This document shows positions 9,390 through 24,434 of a DNA stretch of 42,447 nucleotides, in pieces. Under the pieces are notes generated by a model. The model was not told where the DNA came from and ran no database searches. It was given only the letters and a program-made list of their open reading frames with translations. The position numbers were made by a program, and so were the translations under genes. The DNA lies in IMG/VR virus record IMGVR_UViG_3300042861_001339, positions 1 to 42,447 of that record; one strand, written 5' to 3'. Numbering within the stretch: the first letter of the stretch is position 1; each line of letters begins with the position of its first letter. Source of the DNA: a virus.

Positions 9390-9734
9390 GTGCTTATTCC
9401 ATATCCTGATGAATTTCCACTTGAGGCGTTTTCTTTGCTTCTTGACAGAGTGCGCGGCAAATCAATTCCGATTTCAGACCTTGCCCATTCAGCTTGGAAC
9501 GTTGCTGGGTATTGCCTTTCGCAGATGCTACCAGCCGGTCCAATGATTTCGTCCGCTCTGGCGGTTGAGTCAGAAATTGCTTCCAAATTTGATTTTAGTG
9601 ATACAAAGCTTTTGGAATACGCAATTGAAAACGGTTATAACCCGCCATCAGAAGATGGAGTTTCACGTGGCGTTATTCCTTGGATGTCAATCTTCTTGCT
9701 GGCAATAAAATTATTGAGGCAGCTTAATGTTTGA
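9390..9734 (+). CDS. Unknown protein (114 aa)
   Basis: Not recognised. Mainly helical; a hydrophobic stretch near residues 38-60 (AWNVAGYCLSQMLPAGPMISSALAV) and another near the C-terminus (WMSIFLLAIKLL) could be membrane-interacting. Start GTG 9390 with GAGGGA upstream. The last 8 nt overlap the HNH gene. Its position directly after the protease makes a role in lysis conceivable, but nothing in the sequence proves it. Confidence 0.5.
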   Translation: MLIPYPDEFPLEAFSLLLDRVRGKSIPISDLAHSAWNVAGYCLSQMLPAGPMISSALAVESEIASKFDFSDTKLLEYAIENGYNPPSEDGVSRGVIPWMSIFLLAIKLLRQLNV

Positions 9735-10044
9735 CTTCATCGGTTGGCGTTTTACGCGCACGCTTCAATCCTTGACCGTAAGGTCAGGACGCTGGCCAAC
9801 CGTGAGGTCGAAATTCCTTGCTGGAAAGCGCTGTTCAGCTTGCGACGATAGCGCAAAGCTTGAGGCGCATCATATCGTGCCGTTTTACGTTGACAGCGCA
9901 TTAGAATTGGAAGAGTCCAACCTTATTGCCCTTTGTCGCGATTGCCACTGGTTTATTGGCCATCTCCAGCACTGGGACAAATTCAACCCAAGAGTTGTTG
10001 AGGATTCAGCGCATTTTCTTAAGCGTGTAAAAGAGTTTACTTGA
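9727..10044 (+). CDS. HNH endonuclease
   Basis: 105 residues with a full HNH signature: CxxC (Cys36, Cys39), LEAHHIVPF (His48-His49), NLIALC (Asn65) and CRDCHWFIGH (Cys70, Cys73, His74, His79). The two Cys pairs bind structural zinc, and the His/Asn/His residues form the metal-dependent nuclease site. Phage HNH proteins of this size often stimulate terminase cutting or act as nicking or homing enzymes. Here it is the last gene before the terminator at 10110 and is not next to the terminases, so its role is open. Start ATG 9727 overlaps the previous stop. Confidence 0.82.
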   Translation: MFDFIGWRFTRTLQSLTVRSGRWPTVRSKFLAGKRCSACDDSAKLEAHHIVPFYVDSALELEESNLIALCRDCHWFIGHLQHWDKFNPRVVEDSAHFLKRVKEFT

Positions 10045-10109
10045 AAAAGTAATTGCGCGGAATAATATGACGTTGCCAAGGTCAGGATGACAGCGGGCAC
10101 GCTGGCACG

Positions 10110-10146
10110 AATAGGCTCCCAAGTTGGGAGTCTATTTCGTTTTATA
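10110..10146 (+). terminator. Intrinsic terminator closing the late region
   Basis: An 11-bp stem AATAGGCTCCC (10110-10120) / GGGAGTCTATT (10126-10136) with one G-T pair and loop AAGTT, followed by TCGTTTTAT. It lies 65 nt after the last late gene and before the long non-coding stretch. Confidence 0.75.
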
Positions 10147-10857: not shown

Positions 10858-11019
10858 ATGCTGACGCTTGAAGAAAAGGGCAAAGACGTTTTAGCCTATG
10901 CGATTTCGGTTGGAGTCGTTGAATACGATCTCAACGATATGATTGAGCTTCTCAAGGCAAACTATGAGATGCGCAAGGTTTGCTACCGGATTATTGACCA
11001 GTTCAACTTGATGAAATGA
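10858..11019 (+). CDS. Small early protein (53 aa)
   Basis: An ORF of 53 residues beginning MLTLEEKGKDVLAYAISVGV, acidic in the first half and basic near the end; predicted helical. ATG 10858 has a strong AAGGAAG ribosome site and the GCGATG start context seen in seven other early genes. It is the first cistron behind the promoter at 10784. Its TGA is 5 nt upstream of the hammerhead catalytic core that follows. No family recognised. First-transcribed small phage proteins often target host functions, but that is only positional inference. Confidence 0.65.
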   Translation: MLTLEEKGKDVLAYAISVGVVEYDLNDMIELLKANYEMRKVCYRIIDQFNLMK

Positions 11020-11072
11020 CCCGCTGATGAGCCACGCGATGTGGCGAAACAAGCCAACGGGCTTGTCCGGGT
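11019..11072 (+). ncRNA. Hammerhead ribozyme 1 (type I)
   Basis: Complete catalytic core. CTGATGA at 11024-11030; stem II GCCAC (11031-11035) / GTGGC (11041-11045), loop GCGAT; GAAA at 11046-11049; stem III ACAAGCC (11049-11055) / GGGCTTGT (ending at T11066), loop AACG region; cleavage nucleotide C11067 (GUC). Stem I is ACCCG (11019-11023) / CGGGT (11068-11072). Stems II and III are closed and stem I is open, which is type I topology. Self-cleavage would fall between 11067 and 11068, leaving a 29-nt leader before the ATG at 11097. Confidence 0.92.
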
Positions 11073-11096
11073 AACATAAAACCACAGGAGTTTGCG

Positions 11097-11393
11097 ATGA
11101 AATCTGGGTACGTTTATTTGATCCAAAGGTCTGGTCCAAACAAGATGTACTTCCGACACAGCCCCGATTATCACTATTCCGACCGCGTTCACTATGGCCA
11201 TTGGGGCGATTTGTTTATGAATACCGGCAAATCAATGCTCACGGAACAAGCCGGTTTGGCGCAAGCTTTCGATAGTAGGGAAGAAGCTCAGGCGCATATC
11301 AAACCAACGTCTCATTCATCTTGGAAAGTTTTGCGCGTTTCAAGGGCCAAGTATCAGGAAGAAGCGCTCAAATTCCTCAAACCAACCCGCTGA
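11097..11393 (+). CDS. Early protein downstream of hammerhead 1 (98 aa, paralogue of 12524 gene)
   Basis: Not recognised. It starts MKSGYVYLIQRSGPNKMYFR; the middle has Y-H-Y..W.DLF..TG, and the end is a Lys/Leu helix. The protein at 12524 has the same order: 'W.DLF.(H/N)TG', then an Ala/Leu-rich turn, then 'A..F.(T/S).(E/Q)EA.A.I', then a 'HW/SW' strand. The two are paralogues. Start ATG 11097 follows GGAGTTTGCGATG. The final TGA (11391-11393) lies inside the catalytic core of hammerhead 2, so translation to the end would place a ribosome on that ribozyme. Confidence 0.7.
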   Translation: MKSGYVYLIQRSGPNKMYFRHSPDYHYSDRVHYGHWGDLFMNTGKSMLTEQAGLAQAFDSREEAQAHIKPTSHSSWKVLRVSRAKYQEEALKFLKPTR

Positions 11394-11450
11394 TGAGTCA
11401 CGATAGGTGACGAAACAAGAACACGGCCAATTTCGTGTTCTTGTCCGGGT
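11385..11450 (+). ncRNA. Hammerhead ribozyme 2 (type I)
   Basis: CTGATGA core 11390-11396; stem II GTCAC (11397-11401) / GTGAC (11407-11411), loop GATAG; GAAA 11412-11415; an 11-bp stem III from A11415 to T11444 (ACAAGAACACG / CGTGTTCTTGT) with loop GCCAATTT; cleavage base C11445. Stem I is ACCCG (11385-11389) / CGGGT (11446-11450). Every conserved core base is present. Cleavage gives a 36-nt leader for the gene at 11482. The stop codon of the upstream gene is TGA 11391-11393 within the core. Confidence 0.93.
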
Positions 11451-11481
11451 CAAATTTCTTTATTGCGGAGTGAGGTGCGTC

Positions 11482-12114
11482 ATGTTTTCCAAGGAATTTC
11501 ATGAGGTTCATGAAAGAGAAATTGCCAACATCGTCAAGCAGTATCTGGATGACACCGATTTCGATCAATACATGGAAAAGCCAGACTATTCCAAAGATCG
11601 TGAATCTTTCATCTATGAGGTCCAAAACGAAATTGAAAAGAAGGTAGTTGCGGCATCCAGCGAGTTGGAGTCATACGCGGAAGATATTCAGACCAATTTG
11701 GAAAGTGAATTAGAAGGGAAGGTGGAGTCCGCAACCTCAGACTATCTTGACGGTATTGATTTTGACGAGTATGTGGCAGAACGTGTCGATTGGGACAATC
11801 TTGTCAAGGATTGCAACGTTGATTTCGAGCAGCTTATCAAAGAAAACGTGAATTTCGACCTAGTTGCTGGCCCGTTTGTGGAGCGCATGGCAGAGAAGGC
11901 GGTAGAAAGGCTCTCAGATATCCGCATCGCCGATATGGGCCAAGAAATCAGGACGGCATTCAAATACGATATTGAGGCGGTACAGAATTCCTTGTACGTG
12001 GCGCGCGAACACATTACTTTCTTGGAGGGCCAGATTTCGGAATTACGTGAACAGATTTCTCAAATACGCAACCAGCCCAAGAAATCGTGGTTTGCCAGAC
12101 TCATTGGCGCGTAA
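11482..12114 (+). CDS. Acidic coiled-coil early protein (210 aa)
   Basis: Not recognised. It is very acidic and helical; repeated 'YLD..DFD.Y' motifs (about residues 20-30 and 90-102: YLDDTDFDQY, YLDGIDFDEY) suggest an internal duplication. The C-terminal 45 residues form a coiled coil (ITFLEGQISELREQISQIRNQ) and end with a basic KKSWFARLIGA. ATG 11482 is chosen because GAGG precedes it; the longer frame from 11407 reads through hammerhead 2 and is not used. A DNA-mimic or scaffolding role is imaginable from the charge only. Confidence 0.65.
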   Translation: MFSKEFHEVHEREIANIVKQYLDDTDFDQYMEKPDYSKDRESFIYEVQNEIEKKVVAASSELESYAEDIQTNLESELEGKVESATSDYLDGIDFDEYVAERVDWDNLVKDCNVDFEQLIKENVNFDLVAGPFVERMAEKAVERLSDIRIADMGQEIRTAFKYDIEAVQNSLYVAREHITFLEGQISELREQISQIRNQPKKSWFARLIGA

Positions 12115-12119
12115 AACAT

Positions 12120-12177
12120 CCCCTTCACCCCACAAGGAATTCCCACTTGTGGGCCATAGGGGCTGTTTTTCTCACAG
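12120..12177 (+). promoter_or_regulatory. Structured leader A: nested hairpin plus second hairpin
   Basis: Outer stem CCCCT (12120-12124) / AGGGG (12158-12162); internal loop TCAC / CCAT; inner stem CCCACAAG (12129-12136) / CTTGTGGG (12146-12153). It is followed directly by CTGT (12163-12166) / ACAG (12174-12177). The second hairpin overlaps the ribosome site AGGAG, so it could control translation of the gene at 12189. Confidence 0.6.
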
Positions 12178-12188
12178 GAGTTTATGCG

Positions 12189-12443
12189 ATGGTCAAGCTT
12201 TCTGAGCGTGCTACGGAATTGTTTACAGCTTATGCCCGTGACGCGGGCAATTGGAGCGGCAACCCTATGGTTGGCGGCAACGTACCAAGCAACGGCAAAT
12301 CAGACCGTGGGTACATTTTAGCCTTAAAACGGCAAGGCCTTATTACAACGTACACAGAATATGGGTGCGTGTGGATCGTGTTCACCGACAAGGGATTGGA
12401 ATACGCGTCAACCCTAGGCATAAAAGTTTGCCTTCCCCACTGA
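12189..12443 (+). CDS. Winged-helix-like early protein (84 aa)
   Basis: The C-terminal half reads as a winged-helix wing: 'GYILALKRQGLITTYTEYG', then VWIVFTDKGLEYA, matching the 'L..L...GLI......g....W..lT.kG...a' form of MarR/PadR-like folds. The N-terminal helix LSERATELFTAYARDAG fits the preceding helix. Probably a small DNA-binding regulator; target unknown. Start ATG 12189 with GGAGTTTATGCGATG. The stop TGA (12441-12443) is inside the core of hammerhead 3. Confidence 0.6.
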   Translation: MVKLSERATELFTAYARDAGNWSGNPMVGGNVPSNGKSDRGYILALKRQGLITTYTEYGCVWIVFTDKGLEYASTLGIKVCLPH

Positions 12444-12498
12444 TGAGCCACAAAACGTGGCGAAACAGGAACACGAAATTGTCGTGTTCTTGTCTGGG
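12436..12498 (+). ncRNA. Hammerhead ribozyme 3 (type I)
   Basis: CTGATGA core 12440-12446; stem II GCCAC (12447-12451) / GTGGC (12457-12461), loop AAAAC; GAAA 12462-12465; stem III A12465-T12493 of 11 pairs with one G-T, loop AAATTGT; cleavage base C12494. Stem I is CCCA (12436-12439) / TGGG (12495-12498), slightly shorter than in the other two. Stem III shares GAACACG / CGTGTTC with hammerhead 2. Cleavage leaves a 29-nt leader before ATG 12524, the same length as after hammerhead 1. Confidence 0.92.
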
Positions 12499-12523
12499 TA
12501 ACATCAACCTTTGGAGTATTGCG

Positions 12524-12814
12524 ATGAAGGCATACGTTGGAATAACGTATTTTGTCAAGTCAATCACTAGGCGGTATTTAAGGGAAAGTGGATTCTACTG
12601 CCACGACAACCCGCCATATAATTGGAGCGATTTGTTCAGCCATACCGGAATTCAGCACACTACGGCAGACCTTAAGGAAGCTCAGGAATTCTACACGCCG
12701 CAAGAAGCGCTGGCCAATATACCAACGGAAGGCCATTGGGATATCGTTTGCATGACGGCACAAGAATACCAAAACGCTGTGAGAATTAACAATAACGAAA
12801 TAGGTGCCACATGA
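12524..12814 (+). CDS. Early protein downstream of hammerhead 3 (96 aa, paralogue of 11097 gene)
   Basis: Not recognised. It begins MKAYVGITYFVKSITRRYLR and contains 'NWSDLFSHTG', 'FYTPQEALANI' and 'HWDIV', the same landmarks as the protein at 11097. Leader and start region are also alike (GGGTAACAT, 3-nt changes, GGAG, GCGATGAA). The ribozyme, leader and gene were therefore duplicated as a unit. ATG 12524 is chosen from the GGAGTATTGCGATG context; the upstream extension overlaps the hammerhead. ATGA overlap couples it to the next gene. Confidence 0.7.
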   Translation: MKAYVGITYFVKSITRRYLRESGFYCHDNPPYNWSDLFSHTGIQHTTADLKEAQEFYTPQEALANIPTEGHWDIVCMTAQEYQNAVRINNNEIGAT

Positions 12815-13132: not shown

Positions 13133-13188
13133 CCCCATCACCGCCCACAGCAAATTGTGGGCGGAACTGGGGCTGCCAATTCCGGTAG
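13133..13188 (+). promoter_or_regulatory. Structured leader B: nested hairpin plus second hairpin
   Basis: Outer stem CCCCA (13133-13137) / TGGGG (13168-13172); internal loop TCA / AAC; 9-bp inner stem CCGCCCACA (13141-13149) / TGTGGGCGG (13156-13164), loop GCAAAT. A second hairpin CTGCC (13173-13177) / GGTAG (13184-13188) abuts it. Same architecture as leaders A and C; precedes the DUF932 gene. Confidence 0.6.
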
Positions 13189-13219: not shown

Positions 13220-14188
13220 ATGGCACACGAAATTGATACGACTGGTGGCGTTGAGCGTTGCGTATTTGCCCGGCAACCGGCTTGGCACGGTTTGGGGAAA
13301 GTTGTACCGGAAGCGATGACCAGTGAAGAAGCCATAAAACATGCCGGTTTGGATTGGGCAGTGGATCTGAGGCCAATCTTCCGGAAGTCCAACAACAACG
13401 ATTTGATTGCCGTGAAAGATCGGCGCGCTGTGGTGCGGGTTGATTCTGACACAGAGCTTGGAATAGTTGGGATGCAGTACCAGCCAGTTCAGAATACGGA
13501 ATTGGGCGGTTTCATGGATCTTGTGCTAGGGCAAGGCGCGAAATACGATTCAGCCGGTAGTCTGCACGGTGGCAAGCGCGTGTGGCTGAACGCCAAGGTG
13601 AAGGATTGCTTTGAGGTTATTCCCAACGATCTTGTGGAAAGCTATATTGCCGTTCTGAACGGGCATGACGGCAACCTACGCATGATGGCCGTTGCCACAG
13701 GTACTCGCGTGGTTTGCGCAAACACGTTCCAGCTAGTCATGGACGAAAGCAAGTATGGCAAAAACAGGTCCATCGCAATCCGCCATGACGGAAAGCTCAA
13801 GGATAATGTTGAAACGGCACGGGTTGCCCTTGGCCTAGTTCATACCGCTACAGAGCGGATGGCACTTGAGGCAAAGGCCTTATTGAAGATAAAAATGGAC
13901 GATGAAGCCTTGGCCAAGTTTTATGTGGACCAAGTGCGAAGTCTCAAGCTCACCAAAGAGCGGGCTGAGGCGGTAGTTTCTGAGCTTGTCACGCTCCAGC
14001 ACAGCAAAACCAATACGTTGCGCGGTATGGAAGGAACGGGTTGGCAAGCCTATAACGTTTGGTCTGAATGGACCGACCACAGCACGCGCAGAACGGGCAA
14101 AGACGTGAGGCTTGAATCTACATGGTACGGTGAGGGAAGCCGCAGCAAGATCAACGCTTGGGATTCACTACTCCAGCAAGCTGTGTAA
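13220..14188 (+). CDS. DUF932 family phage/plasmid protein
   Basis: 322 residues with the family landmarks: an early 'PAWHGLGKVV' with 'MTSEEAIKHAGLDWAV', then 'RAVVRVDSDTELGIVGMQYQPVQN', 'SLHGGKRVWLNAKV', a central 'YIAVLNGHDGNLRMMAVATGTRVVCANTFQ', and a C-terminal 'TLRGMEGTGWQAYNVWSEWTDH' (excerpts, discontinuous). DUF932 (also known as TIGR03299) occurs in phages and plasmids; its biochemical role is not established, though it is often near recombination genes, as here. Start ATG 13220 in GGAGTTTCAGCGATG; the longer frame reads through leader B. Confidence 0.85.
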   Translation: MAHEIDTTGGVERCVFARQPAWHGLGKVVPEAMTSEEAIKHAGLDWAVDLRPIFRKSNNNDLIAVKDRRAVVRVDSDTELGIVGMQYQPVQNTELGGFMDLVLGQGAKYDSAGSLHGGKRVWLNAKVKDCFEVIPNDLVESYIAVLNGHDGNLRMMAVATGTRVVCANTFQLVMDESKYGKNRSIAIRHDGKLKDNVETARVALGLVHTATERMALEAKALLKIKMDDEALAKFYVDQVRSLKLTKERAEAVVSELVTLQHSKTNTLRGMEGTGWQAYNVWSEWTDHSTRRTGKDVRLESTWYGEGSRSKINAWDSLLQQAV

Positions 14189-23006: not shown

Positions 23007-23656
23007 AAATACGCGACAGGATCAAGGAATTCAGGCGTGTAAACGCAAACGAAATCCTGCCAAATCCCAAGAATTGGCGGACGCACGGAAAGGATCAAGG
23101 CGATGCGCTGAGAGGCGTGCTGGCAGAAATTGGTTTTGCCAACGCGGTATTGGCAAGGGAAACGCCTGAAGGCCTTATGCTAATTGACGGTCACCTTAGA
23201 ACAGAAACAGCCGGTGACGCAGAAATACCTGTGCTTGTTTTGGACGTGACTGAAGAAGAATCTGACAAGCTTCTACTGACGATTGACCCGTTGGCTTCTA
23301 TGGCTGGAAGCAACGCAAAGGCTTTGGGAGACTTACTGGATAGCGTAAAAACAGACAACTTTGCTGTTGGTTCTATGCTTGCTCAATTACGCGAACAGAC
23401 CATAGATTTCAATGCTATGAAAGATAGCATGGATTCTACTGGAAAGGCTACAATTCTCAAGACGAAAGAAGACTATGAAAATTCATCTGTTCGCCAGATC
23501 ATTTTAGTTTTTGATGTAGACCAATACGCTCTTGTTAATGAGGCGCTTGGCGATTATTGTGATAAGAATGGGATTTCAAGCAATACCGAAGCAATTGTAA
23601 ATTTATTGCAGGAGCAAGGGTATCATGTTACTACGCGTCAAGAAGATTCCGATTGA
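23003..23656 (+). CDS. ParB-like domain protein (hypermodification locus)
   Basis: 217 residues. The N-terminal ParB/Srx-like fold shows 'VNANEILPNPKNWRTHGK', then 'VLAEIGFANAVLARE', 'LMLIDGHLR' (the signature GxxR-like 'iDGHlR'), 'EIPVLVLDVTEEESDKLLLTIDPLA'. ParB-like domains of this type occur in phages next to DNA base-modification enzymes, where a targeting or nucleotide-binding role has been proposed. The C-terminal half is helical and unassigned. It overlaps the dioxygenase gene by 32 nt, a close coupling. Not a plasmid-type partition gene: no ParA is present. Confidence 0.78.
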   Translation: MKIRDRIKEFRRVNANEILPNPKNWRTHGKDQGDALRGVLAEIGFANAVLARETPEGLMLIDGHLRTETAGDAEIPVLVLDVTEEESDKLLLTIDPLASMAGSNAKALGDLLDSVKTDNFAVGSMLAQLREQTIDFNAMKDSMDSTGKATILKTKEDYENSSVRQIILVFDVDQYALVNEALGDYCDKNGISSNTEAIVNLLQEQGYHVTTRQEDSD

Positions 23657-24434
23657 CCTCAATAAGTATAAAAGAAAGTCTGCAACTGAGAACGATTGCA
23701 GCAGGTTCATAGATTATGACGCCGAAATCGAAATTGACGGCAGGCTTGCCATAGTTTACAGGCACCGCCTGCAAGAAGATGGTTTGGAAGAAGTCAGAAA
23801 CTCTTTGACTATGGTGAAATATAACGTTGCTCACCGCACAGGCGGTATGACTTCAACGTCAAGGATCTTTGGATATTCTCCAAGAAATCATGTAAAAAGT
23901 CAGCCTTGCCGCGCAACTTCTTTGGCTATAGAAAACCAAATTGCTCATTCTAATTTATGCAAAACCGCACTGATTGTTGAAAAGATATATTCCGAAATCA
24001 ACCCGCAACTTTATAAAAAACACAAAAACGAAACAGACCAAAACCTACAAGATTCTTGGAAGATGGAAGGCACCTGCTTTACTTCAGGAATTGCCAACGA
24101 TTGCAACCCGTTGCAGTATCATTTTGATTCAGGCAACTACGCTGGCGTATGGTCCGGAATGATAGTATTCAAAAAGCACATATCCGGTGGCCATTTATCA
24201 ATTCCGGAATTAGACTTAACCATAGCTTGTGGTGATAAGTCTTTGCTATTGTTTGACGGTCAAAGCCTTCTTCATGGCGTCACGCCAATCAGAAAAGTAA
24301 GGCCAGACGGAAGAAGGTTCAGCTTGGTTTATTATTCTCTCAAACAAATGTGGAGGTGCTTGGATATAGATGGAGAAATTGACCGTTTGCGGGAAGTAAG
24401 AACAAAGACAGAACGCAAGGATAGAAAAGATTGA
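23625..24434 (+). CDS. TET/JBP-like 2-oxoglutarate/Fe(II) dioxygenase
   Basis: 269 residues. The metal and cosubstrate residues of the double-stranded beta-helix fold are present: H166-x-D168 (QYHFDSGN), H217 (LLHGVTPI) and R230/R231 (RRFSLVYYS). The arrangement is like TET/JBP-type enzymes that oxidise methyl groups of thymine or 5-methylcytosine in DNA. The neighbouring kinase and thymine-pyrophosphorylase genes point to thymine as the substrate, giving 5-hydroxymethyl-dU. No cytosine methyltransferase gene is visible, which argues against 5mC. ATG 23625 has GGAG...AAGGG before it and overlaps ParB. Confidence 0.75.
   Translation: MLLRVKKIPIDLNKYKRKSATENDCSRFIDYDAEIEIDGRLAIVYRHRLQEDGLEEVRNSLTMVKYNVAHRTGGMTSTSRIFGYSPRNHVKSQPCRATSLAIENQIAHSNLCKTALIVEKIYSEINPQLYKKHKNETDQNLQDSWKMEGTCFTSGIANDCNPLQYHFDSGNYAGVWSGMIVFKKHISGGHLSIPELDLTIACGDKSLLLFDGQSLLHGVTPIRKVRPDGRRFSLVYYSLKQMWRCLDIDGEIDRLREVRTKTERKDRKD

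Follow-up and report, generated by a model that had tools for sequence, protein, structure and literature searches.

The DNA analysed here, the window (42,447 nucleotides, positions 1-42,447 of IMG/VR record IMGVR_UViG_3300042861_001339; all coordinates are those of the window), comes from a tailed phage that has no close relative in culture and carries three complete type I hammerheads, H1, H2 and H3, all on the + (sense) strand. They are genuine hammerheads by structure and probably cut a polycistronic transcript after each stop codon and before each ribosome-binding site. Their structure, covariation, placement and occurrence in relatives are observed; that they cleave in this phage, and thereby affect expression, is what we infer. 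The relevant features are listed below, with E-values from R1, a covariance model built from 10 other viral hammerheads, none of them from the window.

10109-10137, + strand: terminator-like hairpin (consensus match only), downstream of an HNH gene (9727-10044) and upstream of the control region that precedes the hammerhead block
10858-11019, + strand: ORF of 53 amino acids before H1, no family; the last base of its TGA (11017-11019) is also the first of stem I
11019-11072, + strand: H1, type I hammerhead, predicted cut 11067/11068, R1 E-value 6.4e-8; stem I 11019-11023/11068-11072, core 11024-11030, stem-loop II 11031-11045, GAA 11046-11048, stem-loop III 11049-11066, C17 at 11067
11097-11393, + strand: ORF of 98 amino acids between H1 and H2, with a 29-nt leader from the H1 cut
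11385-11450, + strand: H2, type I hammerhead, core 11390-11396, predicted cut 11445/11446, R1 E-value 6e-5
11482-12114, + strand: ORF of 210 amino acids after H2, no confident family, with a 36-nt leader from the H2 cut
12189-12443, + strand: ORF of 84 amino acids, no family; the second of two genes in the H2-H3 unit, ahead of H3
12436-12498, + strand: H3, type I hammerhead, core 12440-12446, predicted cut 12494/12495, R1 E-value 2.7e-5
12524-12814, + strand: ORF of 96 amino acids after H3, with a 29-nt leader from the H3 cut
13220-14188, + strand: DUF932 protein (phrog_1221), within the hammerhead gene block

Each hammerhead possesses the CUGAUGA core, a G-C pair closing stem II, GAAA, a closed stem III, the GUC triplet and stem I; three helices surround each core, and stem I is open. 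A strict descriptor finds H1, H2 and H3 and nothing else in the window, and R1 gives its top three places to H1, H3 and H2, the next best having an E-value of 0.42. Both methods place three full cores where an earlier note on this DNA had read them, and the cuts that it gave, after 11067, 11445 and 12494, are the sites predicted here. By script count, which takes in G-U and loop-closing pairs, stems I/II/III comprise 5/6/7 pairs in H1, 5/5/12 in H2 and 4/5/12 in H3. The hammerhead fold is the minimum free energy (MFE) structure of H2, and the hammerhead stems are present in that of H3. H1 has a competing MFE fold 3.9 kcal/mol below its hammerhead fold (-24.5 vs -20.6), and its stems II and III do form in the 53-nt prefix. 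Inspection by eye reveals weak outer stem I pairings with small bulges and no clear loop II/stem I contact, and no pseudoknot conserved across H1-H3 was noticed in the same way. With a short stem I of 4-5 pairs that shows no clear contact with loop II, the speed of cleavage at cellular magnesium is uncertain; the short stem I and the competing fold of H1 are among the points that speak against the main reading.

Judged from their sequences, the three ribozymes appear to be copies that have diverged while selection maintained their structure. Stem I reads ACCCG/CGGGT in both H1 and H2 and CCCA/TGGG in H3; all three have the stem II GnCAC/GTGnC, and H2 and H3 have in common a stem III of CA(A/G)GAACACG/CGTGTTCTTG. 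The changes among them are compensatory, with A-T in place of G-C in stem I and T-A in place of C-G in stem II, so that the earlier description of the stems as unrelated in sequence does not hold. The ORFs following H1 (11097-11393) and H3 (12524-12814) are themselves paralogues (34% identity over 53 amino acids, E-value 5e-8). Covariation extends beyond the window: in an alignment, fitted to the covariance model, of 107 viral hammerheads among the matches listed, 97.7% of cells are paired and the covariation value is 0.867 vs 0.168 after shuffling.

The gene block starts past the terminator-like hairpin, with the hammerheads near its start; DUF932, Sak4-like and sigma-like proteins follow, then a primase/helicase, a RusA-like resolvase and a ParB-like protein, up to the terminase and portal. 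This gene order makes the term early operon a fair inference, and the transcript that holds H1-H3 is probably early and polycistronic. The hammerheads flank individual phage genes and lie outside reading frames, which for H3 is subject to the downstream start chosen: a TTG-initiated in-frame ORF (12251-12814) would read through H3, and the ATG at 12524 has a ribosome site. As the earlier note had it, the ribozymes are of type I and stand between consecutive cistrons; each predicted cut falls after a stop codon and before a ribosome-binding site. In H2 and H3 the stop is fused with the core: UGA 11391-11393 and UGA 12441-12443 (U4-G5-A6 in both cases) also end the ORFs 11097-11393 and 12189-12443, respectively. 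The location of two of the three window stops within the core UGA may be incidental. Enrichment of stops in the core UGA was considered as a rule and rejected, as it concerns only 14/128 hammerheads of the first set described below; the general feature is tight abutment.

This placement was quantified in two sets, counting each ribozyme for which an ORF of 40 or more amino acids has its stop codon -5 to +10 nt from the 5' edge. The first set comprises 128 distinct hammerheads from viral and some genome loci, among the matches listed; the second results from a scan, run to completion, with a CCCG/CGGG stem I as its pattern, and 91 of its hammerheads were counted for stops. An upstream stop abuts the ribozyme in 63/128 cases of the first set, vs 4.4% when positions are shifted at random and 4/128 for the mirror strand, and in 67/91 of the second, vs 5.3% when shifted. 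The median leader from cut to start codon is 31 nt in the first set and 38 nt in the second, within bounds set by a search range of 8-160 nt and by the start-choice score. Downstream genes lie on the sense strand in 79/87 cases (an earlier count, among the matches listed). Cuts that fall after stops and before ribosome sites would truncate no reading frame, and this is the geometry expected of mRNA processing. A literature search of partial coverage retrieved no paper that quantifies this rule of stop, ribozyme and leader; the quantified layout is new here, as are its conservation amid gene turnover and the blindness of Rfam to these ribozymes, both described below.

We propose that each hammerhead would fold during transcription and make a single self-cut, downstream of the preceding stop codon and 29-36 nt ahead of the following start codon. 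The products would be a message with the leader gene, a fragment 11068-11445 with one gene, a fragment 11446-12494 with two genes, and the remainder. The earlier idea that each cut frees the mRNA of the next gene fits the placement, with the correction that the H2-H3 unit contains two genes instead of one. Hammerhead chemistry is well established as to cut site and end groups. The upstream message would keep its whole reading frame and acquire 3' ribozyme hairpins and a 2',3'-cyclic phosphate, and the downstream message would have a 5'-OH end and a short leader that includes a ribosome site of its own. Small accessory genes that lie next to each other would in this way probably become independent in decay and translation; the changes in mRNA stability and protein ratio put forward in the earlier note are likewise hypothetical. 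Folding may be delayed by translating ribosomes, because the stops overlap the ribozymes. The function of prokaryotic and phage hammerheads is described as an open question, with a persistent link to phages, in a 2017 review (PMC6155905); the exact layout observed here (stop at or in the ribozyme, cut, leader of ~30-40 nt, start) makes ideas of processing and insulation testable.

Processing of this kind has been proposed before. Perreault et al. (2011) described clusters of prophage hammerheads that flank single genes, and suggested that they process transcripts into single-gene mRNAs; tandem sets cleave in vitro, and a triple set does so both in vitro and in E. coli (PMC3088659). A triple set flanks ardA in Agrobacterium tumefaciens (PMC3088659). 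The window resembles these clusters in having several close hammerheads around single phage genes of varying identity. It differs in belonging to another phage with other genes, and in that the spacing and the persistence amid gene turnover are quantified here; the term stop codon is absent from the main text of that paper (PMC3088659). The series in the window is hence a known and common kind of phage feature, and the processing idea dates from 2011. The earlier note considered such a series unusual for the early operon of a phage, a view that these published clusters and the series found in other records do not support. Pattern scans returned at least 120 stretches from IMG/VR and at least 118 from bacterial and archaeal genomes, which are pattern matches and not all hammerheads. 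Among the matches listed, the descriptor and the model confirm many hammerheads in the viral set, with series in several records: model matches number 8 in the record of L070, 7 in that of L071, and 5 each in those of L024 and L067. Loci L347 and L351 of the second scan hold 10 motifs each. To note, the general pattern matches contigs assigned to many bacterial phyla, to Halorubrum and to Thaumarchaeota among the matches listed for loci L130-L209, of which the descriptor confirmed only a few as hammerheads.

Among 75 proteins encoded downstream of hammerheads, DUF932 occurs twice and ArdC anti-restriction domains twice, the remainder being mostly unknown small proteins. Relatives of the window DUF932 protein are encoded directly after hammerheads in two unrelated contigs, L070 (2952-3914) and L120 (2-868, - strand). 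These surroundings, a small sample, fit an accessory, possibly anti-defence, gene region. A search with DUF932 yielded 6 distant loci, none with a 4/4/4 hammerhead, and a search with the flanking gene 11097-11393 found no relatives.

A search for cultured relatives gave no DNA match for the hammerhead block or the structural genes of the window, nor for three other hammerhead series. The second scan used the RNA pattern only, yet it returned relatives of the window phage: G060/G061 (without differences in the part compared), G062, G063, G064 and G065. Their terminases are 61-76% identical to that of the window (68% for G063 and G064, over part of the protein), and their Sak4 or primase proteins 55-61%. 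Each relative carries one or two complete hammerheads in the syntenic place, with the HNH gene or its neighbours on one side and the Sak4 / 17254-17736 genes on the other; that of G063 was found by the descriptor and missed by R1, and G065 seems to carry a third, cut by the ends of the record, that bounds one more gene. Their stem I and core are kept, with variation at position 7, and stem II is recoded yet fully paired, usually with a GGCA loop. None of the small genes around the window hammerheads clusters with genes of the relatives. By this comparison of sequences, the ribozymes persist in place while the surrounding small genes change. In a set of 29 terminase relatives no hammerhead reached E 0.01, and a single weak match stood at E 0.039. 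The records are mostly short, and the ones that were probed are without the DUF932, 210-amino-acid and Sak4 genes of the window, so that this empty result says little.

This persistence bears on a plausible refinement of the main explanation, which does not compete with it: the hammerheads could be portable 5' leaders or insulators of the downstream gene that trim off upstream RNA and make accessory genes swappable without cross-effects. This is possible, at perhaps one chance in a few. Related hammerhead sites that conserve a single flank mostly conserve the downstream flank (11 downstream, 2 upstream; 51 vs 67 at control junctions, p 0.007). In G060 and G065 (L352/L353, L357/L358) an identical 56-nt ribozyme precedes different genes with unrelated flanks, and the downstream genes match crosswise (97% and 92%) next to unrelated upstream sequence. 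The paralogy of the genes after H1 and H3 points the same way. This asymmetry mildly favours a ribozyme that belongs to its downstream gene, but the 11 vs 2 pairs are not independent, one contig being involved in 4/11, and the majority of related sites (84 pairs) conserve both flanks. One-sided homology is also no commoner than at ordinary junctions (13/97 informative pairs at hammerheads vs 118/287), and a recombination hotspot was rejected on these figures. RiboJ-type insulators of synthetic biology consist of an engineered hammerhead before the ribosome site that cuts off upstream RNA. The placement in the window is the same; RiboJ is an engineered device, whereas a natural insulator role would be hypothetical here. 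A stronger version, in which a stop-fused ribozyme, a leader of ~30 nt and a gene form a standard portable module, staying with and insulating the downstream gene amid upstream exchange, is more doubtful still.

Beside cleavage that matters to the phage, the hammerheads might be decayed or neutral remnants, with cleavage lost or without effect on fitness. The competing fold of H1 speaks for this, but the cores are intact and the stems compensated in all three, and the relatives keep hammerheads with recoded stems, which makes decay improbable. Ligation of the fragments between cuts by a host RtcB-type ligase, giving functional circular RNAs, would be permitted by the established end chemistry and by the tandem arrangement. 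It is nevertheless highly improbable: the scan of window proteins turned up no ligase, the fragments have ribosome sites and the make-up of normal coding units, and Perreault et al. looked without success for products that were circular or spliced (PMC3088659).

The processing reading does not suffer from the silence of Rfam. At gathering scores, which are curation cut-offs and no biological criterion, the whole window has no hammerhead match and no match to another ribozyme class. The covariance check suggested in the earlier note fails with Rfam at these scores and succeeds with the independent R1, which ranks H1-H3 first. Hammerhead_1 (RF00163) has the same core and open stem I as H1-H3, which fall below its gathering score, with no sub-threshold match listed for them. 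The best sub-threshold match of H2 and H3 is RAGATH-1-hammerhead (RF03152), with 28.1 and 21.5 bits for a cut-off of 56.3, and H3 reaches 18.2 bits with Hammerhead_3 (cut-off 48.5). Membership of H2 and H3 in RAGATH-1 was rejected because these scores are far below the cut-off; the extra 5' hairpin of this family falls in upstream coding sequence in the window. Rfam 15 at gathering thresholds likewise finds no hammerhead in 15 viral loci totalling 116 kb (e.g. L070, L071, L116 and L118), which hold about 45 by R1; the nearest to the cut-off in two rechecked loci is the L116 hammerhead, with 30.8 bits vs 34 for Hammerhead_1. As Rfam also misses these clear viral hammerheads, its silence on H1-H3 is no counter-evidence, and its blindness to such ribozymes means that their abundance is probably underestimated. 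Chance similarity, to which the unmet thresholds might have pointed, can be dismissed given that shuffling leads one to expect 0.05 motifs in a window at 3/3/3 pairs and gave none in 40 shuffles at 4/4/4, and given the independent R1 E-values and the conservation in relatives.

Two further features of the window deserve mention. Similar long hairpins occur at 12120-12165 and 13133-13176, in hammerhead-free gene gaps of the same block; both consist of CCCC, an internal loop, 8-10 pairs, a second internal loop and GGGGCTG, match no Rfam family at gathering score, and differ in that TTTTT follows the first and not the second. Positions 23625-24434 encode a queuine tRNA-ribosyltransferase-like phage protein (phrog_6059, E-value 1.3e-36), perhaps tied to 7-deazaguanine DNA modification.
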